Of a stretch of DNA of 64,000 bases, positions 521-27,081 are shown in pieces. Both the position numbers and the translations under genes were made by a program. This DNA is from Spirosoma aureum (GTDB taxonomy: Bacteria > Bacteroidota > Bacteroidia > Cytophagales > Spirosomataceae): positions 3,556,501 to 3,620,500 of the forward strand of contig NZ_CP050063.1 of assembly GCF_011604685.1 (NCBI RefSeq). Direction: 5' to 3'. The notes below the pieces were generated by a model. It did not search any database. It worked only from the letters and a program-made list of their open reading frames with translations, and had not been told where the DNA came from. Every line of letters starts with the position of its first letter. The stretch's first letter is position 1.

Positions 521-2161
521 TCAATAGCCCGCGTTTTGTTTGAAATCACCTTTGTTCGTCACCGCATCTATTTCGCTCTGCGGGATGGGCCGGAGTACAT
601 GAAATGGCTGGATGCTCGGAGCCGCATCGGGATTGTATTTTTTGACCCGCTCAACCAGTTTGTTCGTCCGTTTTAAATCAAACCAGCGAACCTGCTCACC
701 GGCTAATTCGCGGGCACGTTCGTCCAGAATGAAGTCGAGCGTTACGTCGGCGGCTGCTACACGCATGTTTGCCTGGCGGCCCGGTACGGCAGCCCGCGTC
801 CGGATTTCGTTCACGTAATAAGCCGCCGAATCTTTCTTGCCGAGGTTAAACTGCGCTTCAGCCGCGATCAGATACATCTCACCGAGTCGCAGAATATAGG
901 CATCTCGCGCACTTTGGGTCTCGGCATCTGTCGCCCGAGTTGGATCATCAAATTTCTGAAGTGAAACGTAGTGAAAACGATCGCTGGGCGTACCGTCGGC
1001 TTTGTACATATCATTTACGTCATAAATCTTGTACTTTTTCGACTGTCGGAAAGCGGCTGTTACCGGGTATTTTGTTGTAAAAACGGCCGTATCGCCCACA
1101 TTCATCCCCGCCGGGCGTTTGGTTGCGTCGGTTTCGTTGGCTTTCCAGGCCGACTTGAACGATGCATTATACCGGGAATCATTTTGCTCGTTGAACAGAT
1201 TGAGCAGGAACAGCGTCGGCATGTAGCGAACGTTTGGAAAACCATTGGCTACGTCGCGTTTCATACCCGGTTGGGTGTTGTACTCCATCAGGAACAGCGT
1301 ATGATTCAGGTTACTACCCGCATTGAATGCCAGATTGGTCGAGTAATTTACGGACCACAGCACTTCTGTATTTTGCTGACCCGTTATCGACCATAAACTA
1401 GCGTATGTAGGCAACAGCTTATACGAGTAGCCTGTAATTACCTTTTTGGCGTAATTGCTCGCTTCCTGATTTTTTCCCCTCGTCAGATACACCTTTGCCA
1501 GAAAGGCTTCGGAAGCCGGGCGGGTGATCCGTCCATAGTCTGTGGTTGTGAGCGGAATGGCCGTAACAGCAAACTGAAGATCCTGGAAAATCTGCTCATA
1601 AACCGCATCAACGGGCGTGCGGGTAGCGGTTGTCAGAATGGTTTCTGTAGGCTCTAACTGAAGCGGAACCGGGCCAAAACTTTCGACCAGATGCCAGTAA
1701 TACCAGGCCCGGAGAAACCGCGATTCACCTTCCAGTTCTTTCTGACGAGCGGCAGGAACGCCAGCGCTGGGAAGGTATTTTAGTACGTTATTCGCCAGAT
1801 TGATGGCTGCGTAGCATTGTTGCCACATCCGGGTTTTTACCCAGACATTGTCTGTTGTCAGCCCCTGATACGTCATCAGCGGAGGCTGTGGGAAAAGGCC
1901 ATTCGTACCGGTATTGCCGTTATTGGCGGCATTCGTCCAGATGTCGGAGCCCATTTCCATGAGCGCCTGCCCTTCTTCTTTTCCGTAGAAATAGCGATTG
2001 TATGAGTAAACCCCATTGACACCCGCTTCAATGCCTTCGGGGGTAGTGAACAGGGTTTGGGCGGTTGATCCGGCTGGGTTATATTCCTGCAAATCCTGTT
2101 TGCACGAAAACCCGGTAGCGGTCAGGGCAAGTAGCGCTATGTATTTTATGTATGTTTTCAT
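521..2161 (-). CDS. SusD/RagB-family nutrient-binding outer-membrane lipoprotein
   Basis: A 546-aa protein if started at the ATG at 2161; an ATG five codons upstream (2176) is possible, but 2161 gives a tidy lipoprotein signal (MKTYIKY, hydrophobic core, then TGFSC with the lipidated Cys). The SusD features are present: an N-terminal helical SusD-like part with FLRAWYYWHLVESFGPVPL, and a C-terminal RagB/SusD part with RLGEMYLIAAEAQFNLGK, ERARELAGEQVRWFDLKRT and an ending in PIPQSEID. SusD proteins cap the SusC barrel at the cell surface and bind the glycan. It follows its susC by about 80 nt in the same orientation. Substrate cannot be read from sequence; the neighbouring operons suggest a plant cell-wall glycan. 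Confidence 0.95.
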   Translation of the reverse strand: MKTYIKYIALLALTATGFSCKQDLQEYNPAGSTAQTLFTTPEGIEAGVNGVYSYNRYFYGKEEGQALMEMGSDIWTNAANNGNTGTNGLFPQPPLMTYQGLTTDNVWVKTRMWQQCYAAINLANNVLKYLPSAGVPAARQKELEGESRFLRAWYYWHLVESFGPVPLQLEPTETILTTATRTPVDAVYEQIFQDLQFAVTAIPLTTTDYGRITRPASEAFLAKVYLTRGKNQEASNYAKKVITGYSYKLLPTYASLWSITGQQNTEVLWSVNYSTNLAFNAGSNLNHTLFLMEYNTQPGMKRDVANGFPNVRYMPTLFLLNLFNEQNDSRYNASFKSAWKANETDATKRPAGMNVGDTAVFTTKYPVTAAFRQSKKYKIYDVNDMYKADGTPSDRFHYVSLQKFDDPTRATDAETQSARDAYILRLGEMYLIAAEAQFNLGKKDSAAYYVNEIRTRAAVPGRQANMRVAAADVTLDFILDERARELAGEQVRWFDLKRTNKLVERVKKYNPDAAPSIQPFHVLRPIPQSEIDAVTNKGDFKQNAGY

Positions 2162-2177
2162 TTTTAAAAGAGTCAAT

Positions 2178-2241
2178 GAGCGAAAGAATGAAAGAGTGAA
2201 AGTGCGAATACCTGTAAATACGCTCTGCCTCTCTTTCGCTC
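2178..2241 (-). repeat. Inverted repeat in the susC-susD spacer
   Basis: Ten-base arms GAGCGAAAGA (2178-2187) and TCTTTCGCTC (2232-2241) are perfect complements separated by 44 nt, and the spacer itself holds further GAAAG-type units. It fills the gap between the SusC stop and the SusD start. A stem here could stabilise the susC message or lower read-through, but no T-run follows, so it is not a standard terminator. Confidence 0.5.
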
Positions 2242-2242
2242 T

Positions 2243-5200
2243 TTAAAAGCCAATGTTCAGACCGAATACGTACAGCCGAGAAAGCGGCTGGTCGATGACA
2301 CCTTCGTTTTCCGGATCAAAATCTTTCAGATTGCTGAACGTATACAGATTTTTGCCCGATACGTATAGCCGTAGGTTATCGATTTTAAGCTTACCAGTAA
2401 CTGTCTTGGGAATCGTATAGCCTAATGTAACGTTGCGGAGTTTAACAAATGAAGCCTGCCGCTCGGTCAGGGTTGTGACGTAGGTCGAGCTGCGGTTGGC
2501 GTTCGGACGAGGGTACTCGTTGGTAGGGTTTTCGGGAGTCCAGTAGTCGATGCTGGCGCCGTTATTATTGCCGTTCCGGTTGTACTTGGCATAATAGTCC
2601 GAGCTGATCCACTGTCCGGCCCGGGCGATAAACAGAATGTTCAGGTCAAACCCTTTGTAGCGAATGTCGTTTGACAGACCACCCGTCCACTGCGGCACCC
2701 GCGATCCGATGATTGTCCGGTCTGTTCCGTCAATTTTACCGTCGTTGTTTATATCGGCAATTTTGATGTCGCCGGGAATGGCATTGTATTTAGCTGCGGC
2801 TGATTCTTCGCCTAACTGCCAGATACCCAGTTTTTGGTAGTCGTAATAAATCTGCGACGGCTGTCCTTCGATCAGGGAGTTCCGGTAATCGTCGGCGATG
2901 ACATTGCCGTTTGGCAGTGACTCGATCATCTCTTTGTTGCGGGCAAACGTCAGATTCGTTGACCAGCTAAAGCCTTTCTGATTGATGTTCTGCGTCGTAA
3001 TGCCAATTTCAAGCCCTCGGTTCCGGGTTACGCCAATGTTGCGGTTCACCGTCGTTACGCCCGTCAGCAGCGGCAGGGTATACGGAAAAATAAGGTCGTT
3101 GGTGCGGGCGTCATAGTAATCGATGTTGGCCGTAATGCGATTGTTGAGCAAGCCCACATCCAGACCCACATCGGCGGTGGTGGTTAGCTCCCATTTCAGA
3201 TCCTGGTTCCCAATGGTTGGACTGATCAGGTACGCATTGGCAGCATTGGCGTCGTTGTAGGCAAATGAAACCGTGGTCAGTGAATTTTGTGTCGCGTACG
3301 GATTGATGACGTCATTCCCCGATACGCCATAGCTCGCCCGCAGTTTCAGATCGGTAACTACTTTTTGGTTTTTCATGAACGACTCGTCGCTGATGCGCCA
3401 GCCCAACCCGGCCGATGGGAAGAAAGCCCAGTTATGCCCTTCGCCTAATTTAGATGAACCGTCGCTTCGCCCTGTAACGGTCAGCAGGTATTTGTCTTTC
3501 CAGTTGTAATTGATACGTCCGGTAAATGAAATCAGCCGGTTGCTGCTAAAGCCACTCCCCCAGAACGGGTTTTGGTTAGCCGCTGCCAGGTTATAGAAAT
3601 ACTGGGCCGGAATCAGCTGGTTATTACCGCCCGCGAAGCTTGACGTATTATTGAACGACAGATAGCTCGTAACGCCCGTAATGGTAAACGAGTGGTCCTG
3701 AATGGCTCGCTTATACGTAAATACGTTCTCCCAGCTCATATTTCGGCTCTGGTTGCTGGTGATGGATGCCTGCGATCGGCTTCCGGCGCCATCGATGGTG
3801 TTGCGGCCGTAGTAATTTCCCAACTCTGACGTCGAGAAAATCGCGCCCAGTGTTGAGCGAACCGTGAAGCCCGTAAATGGGGCCAGTTCGACATAGGCCG
3901 AAAGCGTACCGCGATTTGTTTTCTGGTTTCGTTTGTAGGCGTTTGGCTGCTCATCGGCCAGTGGATTGATGACACTTCCACCCAGCGGAAACGGGATAAA
4001 ATTGCCGTTTTCGTCATAAGGTGTGCCCAACGGCGGAATGTTGGAGGCCCGGTTGAACGGGTCCCGGCGAATGTCGTTGTCAATGTACGCGAGTTGGGTC
4101 TGGATGCCTGCCGTAATCCAGTTGTTGATGGTCTGGTCGATGTTCATCCGGGCCGAATAGCGTTTGTACTCGTCCAGTCGCAGGATGCCTTTTTCGTTAT
4201 AATAGCCAGCCGAGAAATACACTTTGGTTTTGTCTGTCCCGCCGGTAACACTCAGTTGGTGGTCCTGCTGAAATCCCTGCTTCAGCAACAGATCGGGCCA
4301 GACTGGAAACTGCTGCTTCTGAATGGCGTCTAACTGGGGGGCATTAAAAATCTTCGAATCATCGGCCGGGCTGCTCCAGGTGCCAGCGGCCCGGTAGGCT
4401 TCGCGCCGGAATGCAATGTATTCAGGACCAGTCATAAACTTACCATAGCCCGCTACCTCCGATACACCCGCATACGAACTCAGGCTGAGTTTAGGTTTGC
4501 CGCCTGTGCCGCGCTTGGTTGTGATGATAATTACTCCGTTGGCCCCACGAGAACCGTAAATGGCCGTTGAGGACGCATCTTTCAATACGTCAATTGAGGC
4601 AATATCATTCGGGTTTATATCGGCGGCATTCACACCCTGCACACCGTCGACGATATACAGAACATTGTTCGAACTGCTGGGGTTAGCAATCGAGCGGTTC
4701 CCCCGAATCCGTATCGAAGCACTGGCACCAGCGTACCCACTATTCCGGGTGATGTCGGCACCGGGAATTTTCCCCTGGAGCGCTTCGACCGGCGTAGTCA
4801 CGGGTATCTTGGTTGTTTCGTCGCCCTTGATGGAAACTACCGAGCCGGTCAGGTCCCGTTTGCGCTGCGTTCCATATCCAACTACGACGACCTCATTCAG
4901 TTGCTTATTATCGACCTGAAGCGTTATATTCAGGTCGGTTTGGTTCGTAATCGGCACTTCCTGAGACAGATAACCGACAAAACTGAAAACCAAGGTAGTA
5001 GCCGCGTCAGGAGCGGTCAATTGATAGAGGCCATTCGCGTCGGTCGTAGTTCCTTTACCGGTGTTTTTGATAACCACGCTAACGCCCGGCAAACCCTGGC
5101 CATTTTCGTCTTTAACCGTCCCTTTGATCGTTCTGTCTGCTGCCGGTTGATCCGATTTTGTATCGGTTGGAGCAAGCGTTAGTGCAGGTATTTTTGCGGA

Positions 5201-5341
5201 TACCAGGTGGGTAAATAATACCGTCGAAGCCTTGTTCTCAGAAACCTGGAGCGTTCGCTCCGGGTTACTAAATACTACAGTTGGGAAACCTACCTGAATC
5301 AGTCCAAGCAGACTGAGAAAGCAGGTATACATATTTTTCAT
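2243..5341 (-). CDS. SusC/RagA-family TonB-dependent outer-membrane transporter
   Basis: About 1032 aa from the ATG at 5341; an upstream ATG at 5389 adds 16 polar residues before the signal peptide and is less likely. After the signal comes a carboxypeptidase-like regulatory domain (IKGTVKDENGQGLPGVSVVI), then the linker LNEVVVVGYGTQ, the plug domain (IRIRGNRSI, VLYIVDGVQG, IDVLKDASSTAIYGSRGANG) and a long beta-barrel ending in LYVFGLNIGF. This is the classic SusC order. It imports oligosaccharides across the outer membrane using TonB energy, partnered by the SusD downstream. It is the last transcription unit of the leftward group that begins with the GH78-like gene, though a 300-nt gap suggests its own promoter. 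Confidence 0.96.
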   Translation of the reverse strand: MKNMYTCFLSLLGLIQVGFPTVVFSNPERTLQVSENKASTVLFTHLVSAKIPALTLAPTDTKSDQPAADRTIKGTVKDENGQGLPGVSVVIKNTGKGTTTDANGLYQLTAPDAATTLVFSFVGYLSQEVPITNQTDLNITLQVDNKQLNEVVVVGYGTQRKRDLTGSVVSIKGDETTKIPVTTPVEALQGKIPGADITRNSGYAGASASIRIRGNRSIANPSSSNNVLYIVDGVQGVNAADINPNDIASIDVLKDASSTAIYGSRGANGVIIITTKRGTGGKPKLSLSSYAGVSEVAGYGKFMTGPEYIAFRREAYRAAGTWSSPADDSKIFNAPQLDAIQKQQFPVWPDLLLKQGFQQDHQLSVTGGTDKTKVYFSAGYYNEKGILRLDEYKRYSARMNIDQTINNWITAGIQTQLAYIDNDIRRDPFNRASNIPPLGTPYDENGNFIPFPLGGSVINPLADEQPNAYKRNQKTNRGTLSAYVELAPFTGFTVRSTLGAIFSTSELGNYYGRNTIDGAGSRSQASITSNQSRNMSWENVFTYKRAIQDHSFTITGVTSYLSFNNTSSFAGGNNQLIPAQYFYNLAAANQNPFWGSGFSSNRLISFTGRINYNWKDKYLLTVTGRSDGSSKLGEGHNWAFFPSAGLGWRISDESFMKNQKVVTDLKLRASYGVSGNDVINPYATQNSLTTVSFAYNDANAANAYLISPTIGNQDLKWELTTTADVGLDVGLLNNRITANIDYYDARTNDLIFPYTLPLLTGVTTVNRNIGVTRNRGLEIGITTQNINQKGFSWSTNLTFARNKEMIESLPNGNVIADDYRNSLIEGQPSQIYYDYQKLGIWQLGEESAAAKYNAIPGDIKIADINNDGKIDGTDRTIIGSRVPQWTGGLSNDIRYKGFDLNILFIARAGQWISSDYYAKYNRNGNNNGASIDYWTPENPTNEYPRPNANRSSTYVTTLTERQASFVKLRNVTLGYTIPKTVTGKLKIDNLRLYVSGKNLYTFSNLKDFDPENEGVIDQPLSRLYVFGLNIGF

Positions 5342-5642
5342 GATCGTACTATTGATTAAGGAGTTGTCTTGTACAGCGCTAGTAGTCAAGCGTTTGTTTA
5401 CTTTACAGCCTCGATGTGAATACCTATGTCATAGCTTCTTAAAAGCAGAATACTTTTAAGAGCTGAAGGGATTTGACAAACTTAGGGCATTAAGTGAACG
5501 TCGGTTTCCACCATTTTCTCTAAAAATTATACAATATTAGCATGGTATAACTTCTTGAAAATTTTGAATTTTTGATGGAGGTGTAAAACGCTGGTTTGAG
5601 TAGTTGACCGAAGTAATCAGAAAGAAGTATCCGACCAAATTT
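5342..5642. other. Intergenic region upstream of susC
   Basis: No credible gene is seen. On the minus strand TAAGTTTG at 5484-5477 fits the Bacteroidota -7 element TAnnTTTG, but I see no TTG at the expected spacing upstream. A 9-bp inverted repeat (TCTTAAAAG 5437-5445, CTTTTAAGA 5453-5461) lies just downstream of this candidate and could be an operator or a 5'-UTR hairpin. Confidence 0.4.
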
Positions 5643-6953
5643 TTAGTGAGCCGACGTAGTGACCTTCTCCTCATATGTACTGGTGGATGTATCCGATACC
5701 GGTCTGCGACGCCAGTAATTTGCCAGAATAGACCCCGAAATGTTCATCCACGGACTGAATACCGCGGCTGGTAGACCAACGGTTCCTAATTTACCCATAC
5801 TGCCTGCCAGGCCCGACGCCATACCGCCGTTTTGCAGGCCAACCTCAAAGGCAACGGTTCGGGCTGAGTTTTTGTCGAGACCGAACAGGCGACTGAACCA
5901 GTAACCAAAAAAATAACCAGCTGCGTTGTGAATCACGGAACTGATAAAGAGCAAAAGACCGACATTAAGAAGGTTATCTCGACCGGCTGCGGTCGTGACG
6001 GCGGTGAAATAGATGATGCCAAACATCGACAAATAAGGCATTAACGCATCCAGTTTAGGATTGCTGGTTGCTACCTGATGATAAATAACGCCGACGACTA
6101 AAGCCGCCAGTAAAAAGCTGAAAATCTCCATGAATTGAAGCAATTCGGGACTTGGTAGTAGAGTCTCAAAAAAGGACCACAAGCCAAATCCGAGTGCAAC
6201 CAACCATCCTGTAGCCAGTCCAGCCAGCAAAAAGGCCATCCGTCTGCTGGTCGTGGAAGCTGTTTTTAGGTAGTCATGTACCAGGGCTGCAAAAATAGGA
6301 ACAATGACAATTTTGATAATTTCCATCATCATGTTCACAAACTTGATTTCGATAAGCGTACCCGCCAGTAGCTTGAGCAATAAAGGTGTTAGAAATGGGG
6401 CCGCCAGCGTTGCCATGGCCGTTACAACAACCGAAAGGACCAGATTGGCTTTGGCTAGATAAACCATCACGTTGGAGGCCAATCCACTTGAGCAGGAGCC
6501 AATCAGGATAATACCAGCCGCTATTTCTGGCTCAAACTTAAATACTTTGGTCAAGAGCAGGCCCATCAGCGGCATCACCGAGAAATGGCAGAAAAGACCA
6601 ATCGCTACACCTTTGCCCGTTGTCGCCAACCCCGAAAAATCCCGGATGCTCATCTGAATCCCCATCCCAAACATGACCAGCTGGATAATCAGCAGAATGA
6701 GCCATTTATTCCGTAGGTCGAACGATCCCCAATGGCTGAAAGCCGCCGGATAAATCATTCCCGCAATCACGGCCACAATGATCCAGGCAGTATACTGATA
6801 GGTTTTCAGGGCAGGAATGGCCTTCATGCCCAGCGCAAAGCTGATCGCAGCCATCACCGCTGCCGGTTGCCAGAGGCTGGCATTTTGCAGGAAAAGGCCA
6901 GCCAGCAATAGAGCCAAGGCAAGGGCAGAGATGATGAGAGGTATTTTATTCAT
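5643..6953 (-). CDS. Bile acid:sodium symporter (BASS) family transporter
   Basis: A 436-aa, almost wholly hydrophobic inner-membrane protein with about ten membrane segments. The BASS signatures are visible: the segment with FGMGIQMSIRDF, the glycine-rich break GSCSSGLASNVMVYLAKAN, and the late AFEVGLQNGGMASGLA motif. BASS carriers move organic anions (bile acids, 2-oxo acids, pantoate) with sodium. A soluble-looking extension of about 25 residues ends the protein. It is 57 nt downstream of the racemase-like gene, in the same operon as the acid-sugar kinase and the RuBisCO-like protein. I infer that it imports the sugar acid those enzymes use; that is not shown by sequence alone. Confidence 0.85.
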   Translation of the reverse strand: MNKIPLIISALALALLLAGLFLQNASLWQPAAVMAAISFALGMKAIPALKTYQYTAWIIVAVIAGMIYPAAFSHWGSFDLRNKWLILLIIQLVMFGMGIQMSIRDFSGLATTGKGVAIGLFCHFSVMPLMGLLLTKVFKFEPEIAAGIILIGSCSSGLASNVMVYLAKANLVLSVVVTAMATLAAPFLTPLLLKLLAGTLIEIKFVNMMMEIIKIVIVPIFAALVHDYLKTASTTSRRMAFLLAGLATGWLVALGFGLWSFFETLLPSPELLQFMEIFSFLLAALVVGVIYHQVATSNPKLDALMPYLSMFGIIYFTAVTTAAGRDNLLNVGLLLFISSVIHNAAGYFFGYWFSRLFGLDKNSARTVAFEVGLQNGGMASGLAGSMGKLGTVGLPAAVFSPWMNISGSILANYWRRRPVSDTSTSTYEEKVTTSAH

Positions 6954-7010
6954 GGGTTTAGTTTTTTGCCATTCCTACGGCGTCGGGATGACAGAAAATA
7001 CGTCTGAACA

Positions 7011-7673
7011 CTACGAAAACTGTGCGGCCAGATGTTGGATCGCTATCGTCGGACTTGCCAGAATCGGTACTTTTTTATCACTGGCATCCAGCGTATCGAC
7101 AACCCGCGCCATTGATGCCTGCGCCAGAACAATCACATCGACTCGGGTGCTCAAATCTTTTAAAGCTGTTGCGACCATCGTATCATGCGTGGCTGTGTCG
7201 CCCTTCATGAGCGCGTCGAATGCCCCTTCGCACAGGACGGATGTGAGTTCGATTTCCTGACCGGCAACCACTGCCCGCCGACGAACCAGATCGCTGGTAG
7301 GGCCAAGGGTGGTTGGCAGGGTCGCAATGACACCAATCTTTTTACCGATCTGAACGGCTTTGTCGGCCATCGGTTGATCGACCCGCAAAACGGGAACCTG
7401 TGTGAGAGCGGCAGCCGCTTCTACCGCAGCGCCAATGGATGAGCAGGTAACCAGAATAAAATCAGCTCCGGCGGCCTCGGCCGAACCGACATAATCGACC
7501 ACGCGCCGGGCGGTATCGGGCGTAAGTTCTCCGCGCTTGATGACGTTTTTGATCAGGCTGTCGTCAACAATGTTAAACGTTTGAATGCCGGGCAAATACT
7601 CGTTGGTTAGTGCTTGAAAAACAGGTACTAACGTGGCTGAGGTATGAATGAGACCTATTGTTTTTACGCTCAT
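7011..7673 (-). CDS. Asp/Glu racemase-superfamily protein, one catalytic Cys replaced
   Basis: A 220-aa cytosolic protein with the two-lobed Asp/Glu/hydantoin racemase fold. The first active-site motif is intact (VTCSSIG, Cys77). In hydantoin and glutamate racemases a second Cys sits in a motif such as LGCAGM; here the matching stretch is LAQASM, so Gln185 replaces that Cys. A two-base racemisation is therefore unlikely. A decarboxylase, isomerase or binding role is possible, since one-Cys members such as arylmalonate decarboxylase exist, although that enzyme keeps the other Cys. The gene lies between the BASS transporter and the DUF1537 kinase (97-nt gap), so it probably acts on the same acid. 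Its reaction is unknown to me. Confidence 0.8.
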   Translation of the reverse strand: MSVKTIGLIHTSATLVPVFQALTNEYLPGIQTFNIVDDSLIKNVIKRGELTPDTARRVVDYVGSAEAAGADFILVTCSSIGAAVEAAAALTQVPVLRVDQPMADKAVQIGKKIGVIATLPTTLGPTSDLVRRRAVVAGQEIELTSVLCEGAFDALMKGDTATHDTMVATALKDLSTRVDVIVLAQASMARVVDTLDASDKKVPILASPTIAIQHLAAQFS

Positions 7674-7770
7674 TTTGTCTGTTTGGTTTTCACTCTGTTA
7701 AGTAATGTCTGGCTGTTATCAGCTCACGTGCCGGCATTGTCCTTTTGGAGAATTCGACCCGCAATCCCGT

Positions 7771-14597: not shown

Positions 14598-15422
14598 ATG
14601 AGCCTACAGGAATTAGCCCGCAAGTCGGTTACGTATCGAAAAAATATTCTGAAGTACATTGTTGGGGCCAAAGCTGGTCATACGGGAGGGAGTCTGTCCT
14701 GTGTCGATATTCTGAATGTACTTTATAATTACGTTCTGAATGTCAGTCCGGAAACAGCTAAATCGCCCAACCGCGACCGCTATATCCAGAGCAAAGGGCA
14801 TACGGTAGAGGCTCTCTACGTTGTACTGGCAGATAAAGGATTTTTCCCGGAATCGGATCTGGAGACCCTGTGCAAATATCAGTCGCATTACATTGGTCAC
14901 CCAACCCGAAAAGTAAACGGAATCGAGCAGAACACCGGCTCGCTTGGGCACGGTCTGGCCTTGAGTGTAGGAACGGCCCTGGCTGCCAAGCTGGATGAAC
15001 TGACCTATCGCGTTTTTACACTCCTTGGCGATGGCGAATTACCCGAGGGCTCCAATTGGGAAGCGGCTTTATCTGCATCGCATTATAAGCTTGACAACCT
15101 CTGCGCTATTGTCGATAAAAACACCCTGCAAATTTCGGGTCCAACGGCCGATGTGTGCAACACCGACCCGCTCGACAAGAAGTTTGAAGCATTCGGCTGG
15201 GCGGTTCGTCACGTGAATGGACATGACTTCCAGGAACTTACCGAAGCGTTCGATTCGCTGCCTTTTGAGCCGGGTAAACCCAGTCTGATTATTGCTCATA
15301 CCATAAAAGGAAAAGGTATCAGTTACATGGAAAATCAACTGAAATGGCATCACGGCGTACCAAATCAGGAACAGTACGCACAGGCATTGACAGAGTTGGA
15401 AGAGGCCGGGATGGCATTGTAG
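14598..15422 (+). CDS. Transketolase N-terminal (thiamine-diphosphate) subunit
   Basis: 274 aa, the length of the TPP-binding half of split transketolases. Motifs are GHTGGSLSCVDIL near the start, DRYIQSKGH, NTGSLGHGL, and the TPP-Mg motif GDGELPEGSNWEAA followed by VDKNTLQ. It needs the next gene product to form an active site; the genes are only 15 nt apart. A split transketolase inside an ABC-sugar operon with an isomerase and an FGGY kinase fits apulose-4-phosphate transketolase, which yields xylulose 5-phosphate and dihydroxyacetone phosphate from apulose 4-phosphate plus glyceraldehyde 3-phosphate. The substrate is inferred from context. Confidence 0.92.
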   Translation: MSLQELARKSVTYRKNILKYIVGAKAGHTGGSLSCVDILNVLYNYVLNVSPETAKSPNRDRYIQSKGHTVEALYVVLADKGFFPESDLETLCKYQSHYIGHPTRKVNGIEQNTGSLGHGLALSVGTALAAKLDELTYRVFTLLGDGELPEGSNWEAALSASHYKLDNLCAIVDKNTLQISGPTADVCNTDPLDKKFEAFGWAVRHVNGHDFQELTEAFDSLPFEPGKPSLIIAHTIKGKGISYMENQLKWHHGVPNQEQYAQALTELEEAGMAL

Positions 15423-15437
15423 AGATTCAATAAACTC

Positions 15438-16412: not shown

Positions 16413-16418
16413 TCCGTT

Positions 16419-17825
16419 ATGAAAAGGTCTATCTGCTTCCTCTTCCTGCTGGCGCTGGCACTAACAATTTGTCAGGCACAGGATGTCAGTAAAAAGTTAC
16501 GAATTCTGGTCCTGACCGATATCGAAAATGAGCCGGATGATGCTCAGTCGATGGTTCGTTTTCTGACCTACGTAAATCAATGGGATGTAGAAGGGCTCGT
16601 GGCGACCACGTCTGTCCACCAGCGAAATCGGGTAGCCCCCGAGCGTATCCGGCGGATTGTGCAGGCCTACGGTAAAGTTCGGACTAACTTACTGCTTCAC
16701 GAAAAAGGATACCCCGAAGAGGCTTATTTGCTGAGCGTTATCAAATCGTCGGTCCCCAAATATGGCATGGACGCCGTTGGGCCGGGCAACGATTCCGAAG
16801 GTTCGGAGCACATCATTGCTGTCGTCGACAAAAAAGATGAACGGCCGGTCTGGATACCCATTTGGGGCGGGGCAAACTGCCTGGCGCAGGCACTCTGGAA
16901 AGTTCGGCAGACCCGTACACCCGCCGAGGTCGACAAATTTGTTGCTAAACTTCGTGTCTATACGATTTCTGATCAGGACGATACCGGGCCGTGGCTTCGG
17001 AAGACGTTTCCTTCTCTATTCTTCATCGTAAGCCCTGGCTTTCATGCACGCGGTGGTTATCATTATTCAACCTGGCGAGGCATCAGTGGCGATGGATTTA
17101 CGCGTGGTTTCGATGGGGCTGATTCCAACCTGGTAAACAATGCCTGGCTGGATGCGAATATTCGTAAAAATCATGGTCCGTTGGGGGCCGAGCACCCACA
17201 TACGGATTTTATTATGGAAGGCGATACGCCCAGTTTTCTCTGGCTGATAAACAATGGCCTGAGCGACCCTGAGCATCCGAATTATGGTAGCTGGGGGGGA
17301 CGTTATGAACTCTACACTCCTCGCACCCGAAAATGGTTCATGGAACCCGAAACCCGACCCATCTGGACCGATGCTGAAGATGAGGTACAGGGGATCGACG
17401 GTGCCTGGCATAACAGCAACAAAGCAACGATCTGGCGATGGCGAAAAGCGTATCAGCATGATTTTGCCGCCCGCATCGACTGGACGGTCAAGCCCTATAA
17501 AGAAGCCAATCATCCGCCCGTTGCCGTTCTGGGTCATGCCAGTGAGCTACAGGTAAAAGGTGGGGAAAAGATTACGCTAAATGCGGAAGGGTCCAGTGAT
17601 CCCGATGGGAATTCGTTGACATACGAGTGGATTTATTACCGTGAACCTGGGACATTCGAAAGCAATCGCCCGCTCGAAATACAGGATAAACAGAAAAAGA
17701 ATGCCTTTATCGTAGCACCCAAAGTAACTACACCTGAAACAATCCATATCGTACTGGCCGTGACTGATGCGGGTGAGCCCGCTCTGACGCGTTACCGGCG
17801 CGTTATTGTAACCGTACTGCCCTGA
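16419..17825 (+). CDS. Secreted DUF1593 protein, nucleoside-hydrolase-like (Sde182 type)
   Basis: 468 aa with a signal peptide (MKRSIC, hydrophobic core, TICQAQ). The N-terminal domain carries [17 protein letters not shown] (Asp34, Asp40, Asp41), equivalent to the calcium-binding DTDxxxDDA motif of nucleoside hydrolases, and [14 protein letters not shown] further on. The C-terminal 90 residues are a PKD/Ig-like domain ([15 protein letters not shown]). Related proteins have been linked to polysaccharide degradation (cellulose-binding Sde0182), but no reaction is established as far as I know. It sits inside a cytosolic sugar operon, 6 nt behind transketolase, so an exported hydrolase feeding the ABC importer is likely. 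Nucleoside hydrolases cut furanosides, and apiose is furanosyl in plants, so an apiofuranosidase is an attractive hypothesis only. Confidence 0.85.
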
Positions 17826-17897
17826 TTTTTTGTCAGTTCGATCAGGGCACAAAGTGAACGGACTGAGAAACGAGTAGCAGTTGTTTCCTAAACCCTC

Positions 17898-18866
17898 ATG
17901 CACAACCTATTCACCTACAGTAGATTACTGGCACTGCTGCTCCTGTTCGCAGTGGCAATTGGCTGTACGACCAAATCGAAAACGGGCCAGCCCAAAAAGG
18001 TAGCGGTTATTGTGTCAACGCTCAATAATCCGTGGTTTGTGGTGCTGGCTGAAACTGCTGCGGCTCAGGCGAAAGCATTGGGCTATGAGGCAAAGATCTT
18101 TGATTCACAGAACAACACAGCCCTGGAAAACGACCATTTCGAGAACGCCATCGTATCTGGGTTTGATGCCATTCTGCTCAATCCAACCGATTCGGATGGC
18201 TCCATCGTGAATGCTATGAAAGCCAAAGAGGAGGGTATTCCGGTGTTTTGTATGGACCGGGAAGTGAACTCGCCCGGGGCAGCGACCTGTCAGATTCTGT
18301 CCGACAATTACTCGGGCTGCGTGGCAATCGGCAAATATTTTGTTCAGACCTTGGGCAAAAAGGCAAAAACGGCGTCCGTTAACTATGTCGAGATTTTAGG
18401 ATTGGTAGGCGACAACAACACCTGGAACCGGTCGAAGGGTTTTCATAGTGTGGTGGATCGCTATCCTGGCTTTAAACTGGTCGCTCAGCAAAGTGCTGAT
18501 TTTGACCGGAATAAGGCGATGGAAGTATTGGAGTCAATTCTCCAGGCACACCCCGATATCGATGCCGTCTTCTGTGGAAATGATGCGATGGCGATGGGGG
18601 CTTATCAGGCGTTGGTAGCGGCTGGCAAGGCCAAAGAGGTTGGCGTGTTTGGGTTCGATGGGGCCGATGATGTGATGAACTCCATCCGTGATGGCAAGAT
18701 TAAAGCCACGGGACTGCAATCGCCCCAGACGATGGCCAGAACGGCCGCTCAGTATGCCGACGAATACATCAAGGGTAAGCGGGATTTTGCCAAAAAAGTA
18801 CCCGTAGCTGTCGAACTGGTCGATCAGGCGAATATCGCTGACTATCAAGATCCTAAAAAGCTCTGA
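17898..18866 (+). CDS. Ribose-type ABC sugar-binding lipoprotein
   Basis: 322 aa. The lipobox VAIGC places it on the membrane as a lipoprotein. The periplasmic-binding-protein (RbsB-type) fold is shown by VAVIVSTLNNPWFVVLAETAAAQAKALGYE, DAILLNPTDSDGS, FCMDREVNS, VEILGLVGDNN, AVFCGNDAMAMGAYQAL and VGVFGFDGADD. It captures a monosaccharide and delivers it to the RbsC/RbsA-like importer encoded downstream. The following DUF2291 gene begins 6 nt after its stop. Ligand specificity is unknown; pathway context suggests apiose or a similar pentose. Confidence 0.93.
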   Translation: MHNLFTYSRLLALLLLFAVAIGCTTKSKTGQPKKVAVIVSTLNNPWFVVLAETAAAQAKALGYEAKIFDSQNNTALENDHFENAIVSGFDAILLNPTDSDGSIVNAMKAKEEGIPVFCMDREVNSPGAATCQILSDNYSGCVAIGKYFVQTLGKKAKTASVNYVEILGLVGDNNTWNRSKGFHSVVDRYPGFKLVAQQSADFDRNKAMEVLESILQAHPDIDAVFCGNDAMAMGAYQALVAAGKAKEVGVFGFDGADDVMNSIRDGKIKATGLQSPQTMARTAAQYADEYIKGKRDFAKKVPVAVELVDQANIADYQDPKKL

Positions 18867-18872
18867 GAAACC

Positions 18873-19502
18873 ATGTCTACAAGTATTCTTAAAAATCTTG
18901 CGTTATTGGTTCTGGTCGGCGTAGTTGCCTATAACTCCGTTTACATCAAAAAACTGGATGAGGTAAAGAAAGCAGCTGGTTCAAGTCTTGGTCCAGCATT
19001 TAATGCAGCCACTTATTCGGAGACGTTCTGGACTACCAAACTGATTCCTGCCACTCAGCAATCGGCAACTGATTTAACCTCGCTCCTGACTCTGTTGAAA
19101 ACAGATAAAGAGAAGGCCATGTCCAGCTATTCACATGCGTTGGGAATTGGTAATATTCGCTATTTTCTGGTAAAAGGGGAGGGCATAATAACCGCCATTA
19201 GCGACGAAGACGTAACGGTTCTATTACCCGATGGCGAGTCCGTAAAACTGGCTACTGAATACATTTTTGGTAATGCGGTCCGGGATGCGTCCGGGTTAAT
19301 CCAGATCACTGAGTTCGACAATACGATGGATCTGAACAACGTGTCTGCCGCACTCAACGATATTATTCGCAGGAAGGTGATTCCTGGTTTGAAAAGCCGC
19401 GCCAAAAAAGGGGATAAAGTCAGCTTTGTGGGCGCAATCGAACTGAATCGGGAGCACCTGCACCTTGATAATCTGGAGGTGATTCCGATCACCGTGAAGT
19501 AA
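18873..19502 (+). CDS. DUF2291 family protein, ABC sugar importer partner
   Basis: 209 aa with one N-terminal membrane segment (IDs ILKNLALLVLVGVVAYNSVYI) and a soluble domain outside. Recognisable family features are the early FNAATYSETFWTTKLIPA stretch and the late IPGLKSRAKKGDKVSFVGAIEL segment. DUF2291 genes are regularly found between the binding protein and ATPase genes of ribose-type importers, as here, but no function is established to my knowledge. An accessory role in uptake is inferred from that constant position. Confidence 0.85.
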   Translation: MSTSILKNLALLVLVGVVAYNSVYIKKLDEVKKAAGSSLGPAFNAATYSETFWTTKLIPATQQSATDLTSLLTLLKTDKEKAMSSYSHALGIGNIRYFLVKGEGIITAISDEDVTVLLPDGESVKLATEYIFGNAVRDASGLIQITEFDNTMDLNNVSAALNDIIRRKVIPGLKSRAKKGDKVSFVGAIELNREHLHLDNLEVIPITVK

Positions 19503-19567
19503 ACCTGTTCAATACCTTGCCGTGGTGTCGCGCTCTTAAAACTCGACACTACCCTAGAAACCCGACC

Positions 19568-21073
19568 ATGCTCGTAGCAGACGATATCACCAAGCGATTT
19601 TCGGGCGTAACTGCGCTTGACAAGGTGTGCCTTGAGTTTCAGGCCGGGAAGGTAACTGCTGTAATTGGCGAGAACGGAGCGGGCAAGTCTACGCTGATGA
19701 AAATTCTGTCGGGTGTTTACCCGGACTACGAGGGACAAATTCGGTTCAATGGGCAACCCGTCCGGTTTTCGTCCGTTCGCGATGCCCAGGATTGTGGTAT
19801 AACAATTATCCACCAGGAGCTCAACCTTATTCCGTATCTGAGTATCACGGAAAATATCTTTCTGGGTCGTGAGATTACCACGCGCTGGGGTACACTCGAT
19901 AAGAAAGCCATGCGGCATACCTGCCAGCAGCTACTGGACAAACTGAAGCTAAGTCTTGACCCCGACAGGCTGATTGCGGACTTGAAAGTTGGTCAGCAAC
20001 AGGTCGTAGAAATTGCCAAAGCGTTGCTGGTTGACTCAAAAGTCATCATCATGGATGAGCCAACATCGGCCATCAGCGAAAGCGAAGTGGCGGTCTTATT
20101 TGGCATCATCGACGATTTGAGAAGCGAGAATAAAGCTATTGTGTACATCTCCCACAAACTGGATGAGCTGTTTACGATTGCTGATCACTTTGTTGTGCTG
20201 CGGGATGGGAAATCGATCGAATCGGGCGATATGCAAAGCATGGACCACGACACGCTCATTCGTAAAATGGTGGGTCGGGATATTACCAGTATCCGGCGGC
20301 AGCGGAATGACCATGGATATAGCCCTCTTTTGTCCGTCGAAAACCTATGTCTTACGCATCCAGTCCGCGCGCAGGAAAATCAACTGAAGAATATTTCATT
20401 GACAGTTGGCCGGGGTGAAATTGTTGGCATTTTTGGGCTCATGGGTGCCGGTAGGACCGAATTGCTGGAAACGCTATTTGGACTTCATCCGAAACGGGCT
20501 AACGGAATCATTCGCCTGAACGGTGAAACTGTTTCCTGTAAGGCACCCATCGATGCGATCAGGGCGGGTATGGCGCTGGTGCCCGAAGATCGCAAAAAAG
20601 ATGGCCTCGTTCTGGGGCTCGATGTTCAAACCAATATTAGCTTATCGACCCTCGACTCCATTGAGCAGACCGGCTTGCTGAACCGGCAAAAAGAGTCGAA
20701 TCTGGCTAAAAAATACATTGCTGAGTTACGGATAAAAACTCCTTCCGAAAAGCAGGCGGCTAAAAATCTGAGTGGCGGCAATCAACAGAAAATCGTTCTG
20801 TCGAAATGGCTGGCTACCCACCCGAAGCTATTGATGCTGGATGAACCCACACGGGGTATCGACGTCAATGCCAAGAATGAAATTTATAAACTCATTCTTC
20901 AACTGGCCGACGAGGGTATGGGCATCATCGTCGTTTCGTCAGAACTGCCCGAAATTCTGGCCATTTCAGACCGCGTTCTGGTCATGAGCGAAGGAACCAT
21001 AACGGCCGAAATGTCGGCAGAGGATGCTGCTGAAGATTCTATACTCAAAGCCGCCATTCCTAAAACCCTTTAA
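19568..21073 (+). CDS. Ribose-type ABC importer ATPase (duplicated NBD, RbsA-like)
   Basis: 501 aa from the ATG at 19568 (MLVADDITKRFSGV); the longer frame from 19517 adds residues homologues lack. Two ABC domains are visible. The first has Walker A GENGAGKSTLMKIL, signature LKVGQQQVVEIAKALL and Walker B VIIMDEPTSAI. The second has the degenerate Walker A GLMGAGRTELLETLFG, signature LSGGNQQKIVLSKWL and Walker B LLMLDEPTRGIDVNAK. This duplicated form is typical of RbsA/XylG/AraG. It energises the permease encoded 13 nt downstream. Confidence 0.95.
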   Translation: MLVADDITKRFSGVTALDKVCLEFQAGKVTAVIGENGAGKSTLMKILSGVYPDYEGQIRFNGQPVRFSSVRDAQDCGITIIHQELNLIPYLSITENIFLGREITTRWGTLDKKAMRHTCQQLLDKLKLSLDPDRLIADLKVGQQQVVEIAKALLVDSKVIIMDEPTSAISESEVAVLFGIIDDLRSENKAIVYISHKLDELFTIADHFVVLRDGKSIESGDMQSMDHDTLIRKMVGRDITSIRRQRNDHGYSPLLSVENLCLTHPVRAQENQLKNISLTVGRGEIVGIFGLMGAGRTELLETLFGLHPKRANGIIRLNGETVSCKAPIDAIRAGMALVPEDRKKDGLVLGLDVQTNISLSTLDSIEQTGLLNRQKESNLAKKYIAELRIKTPSEKQAAKNLSGGNQQKIVLSKWLATHPKLLMLDEPTRGIDVNAKNEIYKLILQLADEGMGIIVVSSELPEILAISDRVLVMSEGTITAEMSAEDAAEDSILKAAIPKTL

Positions 21074-21086
21074 ACGCCTAAGTCTT

Positions 21087-22067
21087 ATGCAGGCACAGTT
21101 GCAAACCTATCGACCCGTTTTTCTGAAATTTCAGTCGCTCATTGCGCTGTTTATACTCTGCCTGGGTATCAGCCTGATGTCCGACAAATTCCTGACAGTG
21201 GCCAATTTCTGGAACGTTCTGCGGCAGATCTCGGTCAACGTCTGTATTTCTACGGGCATGACCCTTGTTGTCCTGACAGCGGGGATCGACTTGTCGGTTG
21301 GCTCCATACTGGCTTTGTCGGGGGCAATAACGGCCGGATTACTCCGGAACGGTATTCAGCTTCCGTCCGCAAATCTCTACATTGGCTTTACCTTGCTCGG
21401 TGCGATGCTGGCCGGATTGCTGACAGGCTCAGGACTGGGCTGGTTCAACGGCTGGGCCATTACCCGGTTTAAGTTGCCGCCGTTTGTGGCTACACTGGCT
21501 ATGCTCACCATTGCGCGCGGCCTGACCATGCTCTGGACCGAAGGCTTTCCCATTACCGGTCTGGGTGATTCCTTTACCTATTTAGGTACGGGTTGGTTTC
21601 TGGGAATTCCGTTACCAGTCTGGGTATCGGGCATCATCGTTGCTGTCGCGGTACTAATTACTGACAAAACCCGCTTGGGCCGGTATATCTACGCGATTGG
21701 CGGTAGTGAAAGTGCTTCCCGGTTATCGGGTGTTAACATCAACCGAATCAAAATTATCGTCTATACTCTCGCGGGTGCACTGGCCGCTGTGGGCGGTTTA
21801 CTGGTCACCTCCCGGCTCGATTCGGCTCAGCCCAATGCCGGTACCAGCTATGAACTAGACTCCATTGCGGCTGTCGTTATTGGCGGTACATCGCTATCTG
21901 GCGGGCGTGGCAGTATTTTAGGAACCGTTCAGGGAGCCATTATTATTGGTGTGTTGAATAATGGTCTGGTGCTGCTCAATGTATCTCCGTTTTGGCAGCA
22001 AGTTGTAAAAGGCTTTGTTATTCTGCTGGCCGTTATTATCGATAAACGAACGGATAATGAGAAATAA
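21087..22067 (+). CDS. Ribose-type ABC importer permease (RbsC-like)
   Basis: 326 aa from the ATG at 21087 (MQAQLQTYRP). About eight to ten membrane segments. Family markers are GMTLVVLTAGIDLSVGSILALSGA, FNGWAITRFKLPPFVATLAMLTIARGL, GGSESASRLSGVN and VIGGTSLSGGRGSI. It forms the inner-membrane channel of the importer with the preceding ATPase and the binding lipoprotein. All the importer parts are present and intact. Confidence 0.95.
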   Translation: MQAQLQTYRPVFLKFQSLIALFILCLGISLMSDKFLTVANFWNVLRQISVNVCISTGMTLVVLTAGIDLSVGSILALSGAITAGLLRNGIQLPSANLYIGFTLLGAMLAGLLTGSGLGWFNGWAITRFKLPPFVATLAMLTIARGLTMLWTEGFPITGLGDSFTYLGTGWFLGIPLPVWVSGIIVAVAVLITDKTRLGRYIYAIGGSESASRLSGVNINRIKIIVYTLAGALAAVGGLLVTSRLDSAQPNAGTSYELDSIAAVVIGGTSLSGGRGSILGTVQGAIIIGVLNNGLVLLNVSPFWQQVVKGFVILLAVIIDKRTDNEK

Positions 22068-22125
22068 ACAGAAATAATCTCTTGTCTGCCAGATTGTTAG
22101 TTGTTCTCATTTTCTGCCAATAAAC

Positions 22126-23619
22126 ATGAACAGTTCCTATATTCTAGCCATAGATCAAGGCACAAGTAGCACAAAGACCCTGCTTTTTGATGAAAATGGC
22201 CAGGTGATTTCGCGCGCTTCGGAACCGTTGAAAACCAATTATTTCGGTGATGGGTATGTGGAGCAGGACCCCGAAGAAATTGTTCGGAACGTGCTCACTT
22301 CCGTTGGCAAGTGCCTTGATTCCTTTGTCGCTCAGGGCGGTAATCTGCGGTCGATAACGGCCTGCGGAATTTCTAATCAGCGGGAAACCTTCGTTGTCTG
22401 GGATGAGGCCGGTGTGCCGCTCTATAAGGCTATTGTCTGGCAATGCAAGCGTTCCATAGCCGTTTGTGAACGATTAAAAGCCGAAGGACTCGAAGAGCCG
22501 ATTCGTACGAAAACGGGCTTATTTATCGATCCATATTTTTCGGGGAGCAAGCTCATCTGGTTGTATGAACAGAATGAAAAAGTCCGTCAGGCTATCGATT
22601 CCGGAAAGGCTTATTTTGGCACGGTAGATACCTGGCTACTTTATAAATTAACCAATGGGCAGCGCTATCTGACCGATTATACCAATGCCTCCCGCACGCT
22701 CTTTTTCAACCTTCAGACGCTTGCATGGGATCAGGAAATCCTGGCGCAGTTTGGCCTTTCCCGACTGAATTTGCCCGAGCCAAACCCTTCCTCGTTTTTG
22801 TTTGGCGAATCGAATTTTAACGGCATGTTCGACCATCCCCTTCCTATTACCAGTATGATTGGTGATTCGCACGCGGCTGCGTTCGGGGAGGGATGTTTCG
22901 CCCCCGGAACGGCCAAAGCGACGCTCGGAACGGGTTGTTCGATCATGATGGATATTGGTCCAGCGTGTAAAGAATCGAATCATGGCATGGTGACGACCAT
23001 CTGCTGGAGCACCGAAGAACGGGTCGACTATGCTCTGGAAGGCGTAATCGTTACCTGTGGCGCAACCATCGAATGGCTGAAAAATAATCTGGAGTTGTTT
23101 GCCGAAAGCCGGGATACGGAAGCATTGGCGACAGCCGTAGCCGACAATGGGGGCGTTTATGTTGTCCCTGCTTTCAGCGGTCTGGGCGCTCCTCACTGGG
23201 ACATGGCCCGGAAAGCGTCTATTTCTGGCCTTACATTTGGCTCCACCAAAAATCACATTATCAGAGCTGCCCTTGAATCGATTCCCTACCAGATCAAGGA
23301 TGTAATCGTTACTATGGAGCAGGACACCGGTATAACGTTAGCGGAGCTAATGGTCAATGGTGGTTTGACCTCGAATGGTTTCGTTCTTCAGTTTCTGGCT
23401 GACCTCCTCAATAAGCCCGTTATCAACCGCGAAATGGCCGATATTTCGGCGTTAGGGGCTGCCTATCTGGCTGGTTTAAAAGCGGGTGTTTATCGGGACT
23501 TAGCGCATTTACAGCAGTTAAACGACTGTAAGTCTGTTATTGATCCTTCGGCGAATCGGCTATCGGTAGGAAAGGCTTACGCGGGCTGGCAACTGGCCCT
23601 GGAAACGAACCTGCACTAA
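22126..23619 (+). CDS. FGGY-family carbohydrate kinase, glycerol-kinase-like
   Basis: 497 aa. The N-terminal ATPase motif AIDQGTSSTKTLLFDE, SNQRETFVVWD (Arg86, Glu87), WQCKRS, DYTNASRTLFFNL and LGTGCSIMMDIG match glycerol kinase closely. In GlpK the glycerol ligands include an Asp-Gln pair; here the matching stretch is GDSHAAAFGEG (Asp247, Ser248), so the Gln is lost, suggesting a bulkier or different polyol or ketose. With isomerase and transketolase genes in the same operon, D-apulose kinase (product apulose 4-phosphate) is the best fit. It is the last gene of the operon and meets the convergent TetR gene after only 11 nt, without a visible terminator. Confidence 0.88.
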   Translation: MNSSYILAIDQGTSSTKTLLFDENGQVISRASEPLKTNYFGDGYVEQDPEEIVRNVLTSVGKCLDSFVAQGGNLRSITACGISNQRETFVVWDEAGVPLYKAIVWQCKRSIAVCERLKAEGLEEPIRTKTGLFIDPYFSGSKLIWLYEQNEKVRQAIDSGKAYFGTVDTWLLYKLTNGQRYLTDYTNASRTLFFNLQTLAWDQEILAQFGLSRLNLPEPNPSSFLFGESNFNGMFDHPLPITSMIGDSHAAAFGEGCFAPGTAKATLGTGCSIMMDIGPACKESNHGMVTTICWSTEERVDYALEGVIVTCGATIEWLKNNLELFAESRDTEALATAVADNGGVYVVPAFSGLGAPHWDMARKASISGLTFGSTKNHIIRAALESIPYQIKDVIVTMEQDTGITLAELMVNGGLTSNGFVLQFLADLLNKPVINREMADISALGAAYLAGLKAGVYRDLAHLQQLNDCKSVIDPSANRLSVGKAYAGWQLALETNLH

Positions 23620-27078: not shown

Positions 27079-27081
27079 ATC

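Follow-up and report, generated by a model that had tools for sequence, protein, structure and literature searches.

The window (the whole stretch of 64 000 nucleotides of Spirosoma aureum DNA that was analysed) carries two divergent gene sets which, on balance, appear to serve two rare branched sugars of the same pectin, rhamnogalacturonan-II (RG-II, the most complex pectin of plants): apiose and aceric acid. By homology, the plus arm (13127-23619) probably enables the use of D-apiose, and the minus arm (521-12691) may well break down L-aceric acid, the substrate that we favour with some reserve. As the initial annotation had described, the two arms diverge from one spacer (12692-13126, 435 bp), and every gene that it had named is an ORF at the position given, matching its named family by Pfam profiles. 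It had passed over three genes, for a racemase-family protein (7011-7673), a nucleoside-hydrolase-like protein (16419-17825) and a DUF2291 protein (18873-19502). The genes, their families, conservation, linkage and co-occurrence are observed, and their grouping is not due to chance; the minus set recurs in related loci and the plus set in Enterobacterales.

Starting from the spacer, the minus-strand genes encode a GH78-type alpha-L-rhamnosidase-like protein (10529-12691; PF21209 292 bits, PF17389 103 bits), an OiaX-like RuBisCO-like protein (RLP; 9171-10415; PF00016), an OiaK-like DUF1537 sugar-acid kinase (7771-9111; PF07005/PF17042), an Asp/Glu-racemase-fold protein of 220 aa (7011-7673), a BASS/SBF anion symporter (5643-6953; PF01758 103 bits), a SusC-like TonB-dependent transporter (2243-5389; PF13715 and PF07715, the TonB plug; 83-84% identity to L012-L014) and a SusD-like lipoprotein (521-2176; PF07980 128 bits; 79-85% identity to the RLP-operon copies in L012-L014). 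The RLP, which contains TIVKP and FVKDDE segments, is the sole RLP match in the genome. The best NCBIfam model for the BASS protein is PanS (216 bits, under the cut-off of 400). By Pfam profiles the operon is without a dehydrogenase or other redox enzyme and without a Gfo/Idh/MocA gene. One scan confirmed 406 relatives of the RLP; the best 80 were retained, all of them Bacteroidota by their titles. Several of the corresponding loci are short contigs, and L025 and L048 stem from a single genome, as do L030 and L049. Genes in these 80 loci were counted by tblastn (at least 45% identity, 60 bits, E ≤ 1e-20), and these counts supersede those of the ORF caller for window genes because the caller misses some genes in GC-rich loci. 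Homologues were found for the RLP in 80, the racemase-fold protein in 76, the kinase in 75 and the BASS protein in 74 of the 80 loci, some of which end at contig edges; the GH78-type protein has one in 27.

The minus operon follows RG-II genes and aceric acid hydrolase rather than apionate genes. The Spirosoma genome itself encodes an aceric acid hydrolase 49 kb from the RLP locus (C1:3514650-3516689; NF049879, 1182 bits against a cut-off of 950) and, 12 kb from the RLP and 3 kb left of the window, an RG-II alpha-D-galacturonidase (C1:3550715-3553498; 1562 bits against a cut-off of 1300 for NF049878, a family which we take to be RG-II-specific). The stretch left of the window also holds GH106, GH141, GH2, GH95, GH78 and a BT_1020-type propeller. 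In all 51 RLP-operon genomes (this one and those of 50 of the 80 loci, leaving out 28 MAG loci, the short contig L019 and L048) a GH127 scores 826-1187 bits against the RLP-linked query, the next paralogue reaching at most 355. The NCBIfam cut-off for aceric acid hydrolase is exceeded in 50/50 Bacteroidota genomes tested; in that comparison a Croceibacterium record, not counted among the 50, took the place of L091. A GH127 of more than 400 bits lies in 39 of the 80 RLP loci, on the strand of the RLP in 38 and ending less than 155 bp upstream of it in 29; it is missing from the examined DNA of the other 41, some of them short contigs. Among 295 genomes drawn from the class, 4 have the RLP and 10 the GH127, and all four RLP genomes are among those 10 (Fisher P = 2.0e-5, own genome excluded and kinship ignored). 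In the PDB, the RLP-linked GH127 comes closest to 5mqo (788 bits; next 382), presumably BT1003. Two reports describe the RG-II GH127 BT1003 as an aceric acid hydrolase (PMC5698469; PMC10850190). The known RG-II loci of Bacteroidota, such as that of BT1003 in B. thetaiotaomicron, share with this genome an aceric acid hydrolase and an RG-II alpha-galacturonidase over the cut-offs; here, by contrast, they are joined by genes for breaking down rare sugars inside the cell. The RG-II hydrolases are well described, and the work on RG-II known to us deals mostly with them.

L-aceric acid is 3-C-carboxy-5-deoxy-L-xylose. The substrates and reactions of both arms we infer, and for the minus arm we propose the following order: (i) the GH127 aceric acid hydrolase would cut L-aceric acid from RG-II; (ii) the BASS symporter would import the free acid; (iii) aceric acid would be converted to the 2-ketose, the candidates being the one-Cys racemase-fold protein, the isomerase of the apiose arm or some further sugar isomerase; (iv) the DUF1537 kinase would phosphorylate C1, yielding CH2OP-CO-C(OH)(COOH)-CHOH-CH3; (v) the RLP would decarboxylate this ketose-acid 1-phosphate to a 5-deoxypentulose 1-phosphate; and (vi) a DHAP aldolase would cleave the latter into DHAP and acetaldehyde. 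The chemistry fits an OiaX-type RLP, as the aceric ketose 1-phosphate would be a one-carbon homologue of the OiaX substrate, and the lack of a redox enzyme in the operon fits as well, since an aldose that is already carboxylated would need none. The proposed last step resembles the DHAP-shunt, the same two products having been suggested for 5-deoxyribulose 1-phosphate (PMC6302742). Our literature search, mostly of sources outside subscription journals, found no published breakdown route for aceric acid. If true, the proposal would assign a substrate and a pathway to an RLP clade spread over many Bacteroidota families, and annotation as OiaK/OiaX alone does not mean apionate. It is a more tentative, and on present reckoning doubtful, suggestion that the pathway is dedicated and self-contained (hydrolase, carboxylate symporter, the one-Cys racemase-fold protein as an aldose-ketose isomerase for branched sugar acids, DUF1537 kinase, and an RLP decarboxylating a compound whose shape resembles that of RuBisCO's six-carbon intermediate) and that the genome holds up to three modules for rare RG-II sugars (apiose, aceric acid and possibly Dha) as an island.

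The racemase-fold protein has the fold of Asp/Glu racemases without their full pair of catalytic cysteines: C77 is retained, and the other position, which we take to be the second catalytic cysteine site from the motif, is Ala186 in 75/76 homologues and a gap in one. Structural matches give the family fold only, no reaction being shown by any of the matches listed. The gene is present in 4/4 RLP genomes of the class sample and in 0/8 of its other genomes tested. Of 7997 proteins scored, 6982 are homologues at E ≤ 1e-20, with only generic names among the 120 matches listed. Rhizobial homologues were considered as well, and the three inspected adjoin amino-acid-type or peptide-transport-type genes, not an RLP. 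Matches to the protein occur in 168 plasmid records. A Croceibacterium plasmid carries an RLP and a kinase with a gene annotated as beta-L-arabinofuranosidase (GH127-type) beside them, and a racemase homologue of 55.6% identity; Croceibacterium was set aside as cross-phylum support for aceric acid and counted against it, since nothing on the plasmid matches the model for aceric acid hydrolase at E ≤ 1e-100.

A rival reading, that of the initial annotation spelled out, gives the minus arm D-apionate or 3-oxo-isoapionate as its substrate, which would enter through the BASS protein or arise from apiose through enzymes whose genes lie outside the locus. The route would end in OiaK and OiaX, so that the locus would serve apiose in both its aldose and its acid form. 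This we now hold to be unlikely. The curated models speak for it: the kinase scores highest on OiaK (409 bits, cut-off 700; second best OtnK, 179) and the RLP on OiaX (516 bits, cut-off 700), and the adjoining of an OiaK-like DUF1537 kinase and an OiaX-like RLP is shared with the oxidative D-apionate pathway (ApsD, ApnL, ApnO, OiaK, OiaX/OiaT) as represented by a Shinella cluster (L092). The RLP and kinase of that oxidative-type cluster also fall short of the OiaX and OiaK cut-offs (472 and 472), the former scoring lower than the RLP of the window; the cut-offs therefore do not discriminate, and we dropped them as a separator of apionate enzymes from those of the minus arm. Placement on a tree, by which the initial annotation had proposed to judge the matter, goes against it, as the Bacteroidota RLPs form a clade of their own outside the branch of the Shinella RLP, albeit in a tree with a thin outgroup (34 rows: 28 Bacteroidota, drawn from the loci after thinning by locus number and supplemented by the window and Rufibacter, as against 6 others with flagged long branches).

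The enzymes that would lead to OiaK tell against the apionate route. With one Shinella protein assigned as ApnO as query, no match was found in the Spirosoma genome at E ≤ 0.001; ApnO is missing from 50/51 RLP-operon genomes, for which reason we consider the route not supported, although L014 (S. profusum) has a homologue of 46% identity. ApnL gives a partial, weak match in the Spirosoma genome (97 bits, C1:5508643), a distant one that can still be counted in favour of apionate, and matches in 5/51 genomes (best 114 bits). A search of the 80 loci revealed no ApnO and no ApnL; in two of these loci an ORF shares 22-23% identity with ApsD of Shinella. As the initial annotation had noted, an apiose dehydrogenase is missing from both arms, here by Pfam profiles, and the racemase-fold and BASS genes are extra to the oxidative pathway. 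Linkage to apiose genes speaks in its favour: both arms are linked in 8 of the 80 loci besides the window, and the apiose isomerase is present in 31/51 RLP-operon genomes against 4/295 of the class sample (5 and 1 of these matches, respectively, having one stop codon; Fisher P = 2.1e-4 for RLP and isomerase, own genome excluded and kinship ignored). The isomerase is nevertheless missing from 20/51 RLP-operon genomes, the minus operon has no dehydrogenase, and we know of no pectin with D-apionate as a component, which we also count against this route.

The next alternative we judge unlikely too, slightly more so than apionate: the minus arm would serve RG-II, but through another sugar or by-product (e.g. 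an oxidised form of apiose set free by oxidoreductases of the periplasm, or some other acid), its RLP catalysing a different reaction of the RuBisCO family. The RG-II alpha-galacturonidase is found in 9/295 class-sample genomes, including all four with the RLP, and thus tracks the RLP as tightly as aceric acid hydrolase does; that RLP and GH127 occur together is accounted for equally well by RG-II in its entirety. Clusters of Gfo/Idh/MocA oxidoreductases, moreover, occur near the RLP in 20 and 15 of the 80 loci (neighbour families being clusters named from one member each). Against this, the commonest named gene directly upstream of the RLP is that for aceric acid hydrolase (29 loci), the next named family being GH78 (6), and among the RG-II acids known to us only aceric acid would yield a beta-keto-acid phosphate decarboxylated by an OiaX-type RLP.

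The plus arm begins with an L-fucose-isomerase-family isomerase of the apiose isomerase type (13127-14551; PF02952, Fucose_iso_C), followed on the same strand by the AptA-like N half (14598-15422; 49.6% identity to AptA of E. coli SE15, 55.8% to the Listeria copy) and the AptB-like C half (15438-16412; 41.9% to AptB) of a split transketolase, a secreted nucleoside-hydrolase-like protein of the Sde182 family (16419-17825; PF07632 374 bits, PDB 2yhg 294 bits), a ribose-family binding lipoprotein (17898-18866; PF13407, Peripla_BP_4), the DUF2291 protein (18873-19502; PF10054 200 bits), the importer ATPase (19517-21073; PF00005; 40.6% to the SE15 apiose cluster) and permease (21024-22067; PF02653; 43.5% to the same cluster), and an FGGY kinase (22126-23619). 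To judge from homologous clusters that have been linked with growth on apiose, the ABC system would import D-apiose, the isomerase would convert it to apulose, the kinase would phosphorylate apulose, and the two-subunit transketolase would split apulose 4-phosphate. The isomerase is 54.8% identical to a Klebsiella isomerase adjoining AplK/AptAB-type genes; the kinase and transketolase halves of Klebsiella and Sodalis are 70-79% identical to those of the E. coli SE15 D-apiose cluster. The isomerase had no informative match in the PDB, and a sulfosugar role for it was rejected (SftI model 93 bits against a cut-off of 700).

The non-oxidative D-apiose pathway (ApsI, AplK, AptAB) was reportedly described by Carter et al. 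in 2018. An apiose cluster of E. coli/Pectobacterium is also described in PMC13001218. The initial annotation's assignment of the plus arm to this isomerase/kinase/split-transketolase set stands on grounds of homology as well as of gene content: both have an ABC importer with DUF2291, a split transketolase, an isomerase and an FGGY kinase, and the set is common to Klebsiella, Sodalis and Rahnella clusters, the E. coli cluster having all but the isomerase; the DUF2291 gene is present in all four. The window differs in its Bacteroidota host, in identities of 32-55%, in lacking a sugar-binding regulator gene in the arm, and in having the secreted nucleoside-hydrolase-like gene. Naming the FGGY enzyme an apulose kinase stands on its context and on 39.1% identity to AplK over nearly its full length; by sequence it is glycerol-kinase-like, exceeding the cut-off of the GlpK subfamily model NF000756 (560 bits, cut-off 498; TIGR01311 549, cut-off 590), unlike the AplK-type kinases tested (SE15 490, Klebsiella 468 and Listeria 485 on NF000756; SE15 495 on TIGR01311). 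That the plus arm handles another substrate, such as ribose, is improbable: this kinase score and a binding protein much nearer the T. maritima ribose-binding protein 2fn8, its closest solved structure (361 bits), than 5ibq (205 bits), which we take to be an apiose-bound structure, would favour it, but the combination of isomerase, split transketolase and FGGY kinase is that of the apiose set, as in Klebsiella, Sodalis and Rahnella, and in Listeria an isomerase (26% identical to that of the window), both transketolase halves and the kinase are clustered with an apiosidase-family gene.

The window occupies C1:3556501-3620500 of a single-contig, 8.9-Mb genome, with a GC content of 46–51% over 521–23619, the locus for which the initial annotation had proposed use of both apiose and apionate. 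Every gene that it named there is present: SusC/SusD, a BASS transporter, a DUF1537 kinase, a RuBisCO-like protein (RLP) and GH78 in the minus-strand arm (521–12691), and an isomerase, a split transketolase (TK-N and TK-C), a ribose-family importer and an FGGY kinase in the plus-strand arm (13127–23619). Three genes had been missed, coding for an Asp/Glu-racemase family protein (7011–7673), a nucleoside-hydrolase-like secreted protein (Sde182; 16419–17825) inside the apiose arm and a DUF2291 protein (18873–19502). The Sde182 protein could be an unrecognised furanosidase; a 65% homologue adjoins the RLP operon in one other locus (L041). Judged by RLP, the closest named relatives are Spirosoma validum, Fibrella forsythiae and Spirosoma profusum (85–86% identity; best 80 of 406 relatives).

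Homology indicates that the plus arm likely encodes the known non-oxidative apiose route, with two caveats: its kinase exceeds a GlpK cut-off and its binding protein most resembles a ribose-binding protein. Four Escherichia strains with a D-apiose cluster, three of E. coli and one of E. fergusonii, are reported to grow on D-apiose; E. coli SE15, not among the strains described as grown, has the same cluster, with genes named including aplK, aptA and aptB (PMC13001218). The Escherichia cluster is described there as being without apsI, with two oxidoreductase genes in its place, and the two SDR genes of the SE15 cluster are proposed to replace ApsI (PMC13001218). The SE15 region (L002) codes for a binding protein, DUF2291, ATPase, permease, FGGY kinase and both transketolase halves; two SDR genes lie at 27042–28657 and the isomerase is absent. 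By blastp, the window proteins are 49.6% (TK-N), 41.9% (TK-C), 39.1% (kinase), 32.3% (binding protein), 40.6% (ATPase) and 43.5% (permease) identical to those of SE15, and the window DUF2291 has no match in that cluster. The window isomerase is 54–55% identical to isomerases of Klebsiella, Rahnella and Sodalis clusters with the same gene set, and the kinases and transketolase halves of Klebsiella and Sodalis show 70–79% identity to their SE15 counterparts. A single Listeria cluster combines an isomerase (26% identical to that of the window), both transketolase halves, a glycerol-kinase-like FGGY protein and an apiosidase-family protein (PF13204). On the GlpK subfamily model (cut-off 498), the kinase of the window reaches 560 bits, three AplK-type kinases score 468–490 bits, under that cut-off, and AplK of SE15 reaches 490–495 bits on GlpK models, so that a glycerol-kinase look is common to AplK-type kinases. 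The nearest relative of the window binding protein is a ribose-binding protein.

While the apiose half of the initial proposal is thus upheld by homology, the apionate half fares poorly. The best curated models are OiaX for the RLP (516 bits) and OiaK for the minus-arm kinase (409 bits), both below the cut-off of 700. These models are not decisive, since the RLP and kinase of a Shinella cluster also fall under the OiaX and OiaK cut-offs. That cluster (ABC importer, Gfo/Idh/MocA protein, a 545-aa protein at the place of ApnL, an ApnO-type protein, RLP and kinase) is what we take to be an apparently complete oxidative set, its three enzyme names being assigned from gene content. In the RLP tree, the Bacteroidota RLPs, including that of the window, form a single group (support 100/100, stem 1.58), and the Shinella RLP clusters apart from them with Croceibacterium and Rhizobium. 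The Bacteroidota RLPs thus appear separate from the oxidative-type RLP of Shinella, which is modest evidence given the long branches of the six-row outgroup. In two Rhizobium loci (L011 and L093) an SDR gene and a KDG-permease-like gene come after the RLP–kinase pair, and the DNA fetched there shows no ApnO; these pairs perhaps serve another substrate.

The surroundings of the RLP point elsewhere. A single scan of named genomes confirmed 406 RLP relatives, and the best 80 loci, all Bacteroidota by title, were fetched. By tblastn, the kinase was found in 75, the racemase in 76, BASS in 74 and GH78 in 27 of the 80, and eight loci had plus-arm genes; ApnO and ApnL were found in none. GH127 (>400 bits) occurred in 39/80, on the RLP strand in 38, and ended <155 bp upstream of the RLP in 29/80 (25/70 among loci with >2.5 kb upstream). 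Clustering and Pfam added GH106 (28 loci), GH141 (20), GH2 (17), SASA esterase (17), GH88/105 (13) and a BT_1020-type propeller (7), enzymes of the rhamnogalacturonan-II (RG-II) type, as well as symporters. A further gene group recurs near the RLP operon in seven loci (L039, L040, L052, L063, L071, L074 and L080): it comprises class III CoA-transferases, SBP-type proteins, MaoC and a Gfo/Idh/MocA gene, joined in six of these loci by an MFS transporter.

The association holds at the genome level. With one RLP-linked GH127 as query, a single copy (826–1187 bits; all other matches ≤355) was found in 51/51 RLP-operon genomes (our own and 50 named isolates). The RG-II GH127 enzyme BT1003 is an aceric acid hydrolase (PMC5698469; PMC10850190). 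The NCBIfam cut-off for this hydrolase was exceeded in 50/50 Bacteroidota genomes; the 51st item, a Croceibacterium plasmid, gave no match to the model at E ≤ 1e-100. In a draw of 295 genomes from the class, GH127 was found in 10, galacturonidase in 9, RLP in 4 and the apiose isomerase in 4; the RLP genomes had GH127 and galacturonidase in 4/4 and the isomerase in 3/4 (Fisher P versus RLP, own genome left out: 2.0e-5, 1.3e-5 and 2.1e-4, respectively). The racemase was present in the four RLP genomes and in none of the eight other genomes tested. Among the 51 RLP-operon genomes, 31 have the apiose isomerase, one has ApnO (own genome without a match) and five, our own included, have weak partial ApnL matches. 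The RLP operon can therefore exist without apiose isomerase or ApnO, and the overall pattern argues that it accompanies RG-II use. In S. profusum, whose genome also carries the RLP operon, C11:54920-61864 contains a homologue of ApnO (46%) and, ~5 kb from it, a weak match to ApnL.

In our own genome, an aceric acid hydrolase (C1:3514650-3516689; 1182 bits, cut-off 950) and an alpha-D-galacturonidase (C1:3550715-3553498; 1562 bits, cut-off 1300) lie left of the window, and C1:3490000-3547305 also carries GH106, GH141, GH95, GH78, GH2s, a BT_1020-type propeller and two SusC/SusD pairs, which puts the minus arm on the margin of an RG-II-type locus. The minus arm is probably a new use of an OiaK/OiaX-type pair, and we lean towards L-aceric acid from RG-II as its substrate. 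Co-occurrence alone does not single out this sugar, because galacturonidase tracks the RLP equally well; it is the adjacency of hydrolase and RLP that favours aceric acid among RG-II sugars. The substrate of OiaX is CH2OP-CO-C(OH)(COOH)-CH2OH, and the 2-ketose of aceric acid, phosphorylated at C1, is CH2OP-CO-C(OH)(COOH)-CHOH-CH3, i.e. the same compound with CHOH-CH3 replacing CH2OH. Its decarboxylation by the RLP would yield a 5-deoxypentulose 1-phosphate, which might then be split into DHAP and acetaldehyde; such cleavage has been suggested, in another context, for 5-deoxyribulose 1-phosphate (PMC6302742). This route would need no oxidation and so fits a minus operon without a redox enzyme, and the PanS-related anion symporter fits import of a branched hydroxy acid. 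Among the matches listed in the open-licence literature, no paper on aceric acid catabolism was found.

Within the RG-II-type stretch, C1:3494893-3499347 is an operon-like run coding for an Fe-alcohol dehydrogenase, a DHDPS-family aldolase, a PdxA-type dehydrogenase and a second DUF1537 kinase, followed by a gene resembling a symporter. The run is possibly a route for Dha (3-deoxy-lyxo-heptulosarate), in which the aldolase would give pyruvate and a tetruronate, and reduction to threonate, the kinase and a PdxA2-type step would lead to DHAP and CO2. The PdxA-type protein scores above the cut-off of the general pdxA model (332 versus 290) but below that of the D-threonate-4-phosphate model (309 versus 583), and the kinase is far under the D-threonate kinase cut-off. 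Elsewhere in the window, an additional SusC/SusD pair lies at 38388–43091 (+), and the stretch 47361–53355 (+) carries an HpcH/HpaI aldolase gene and, after it, genes for hydantoinase/oxoprolinase A and B and for a methyltransferase.
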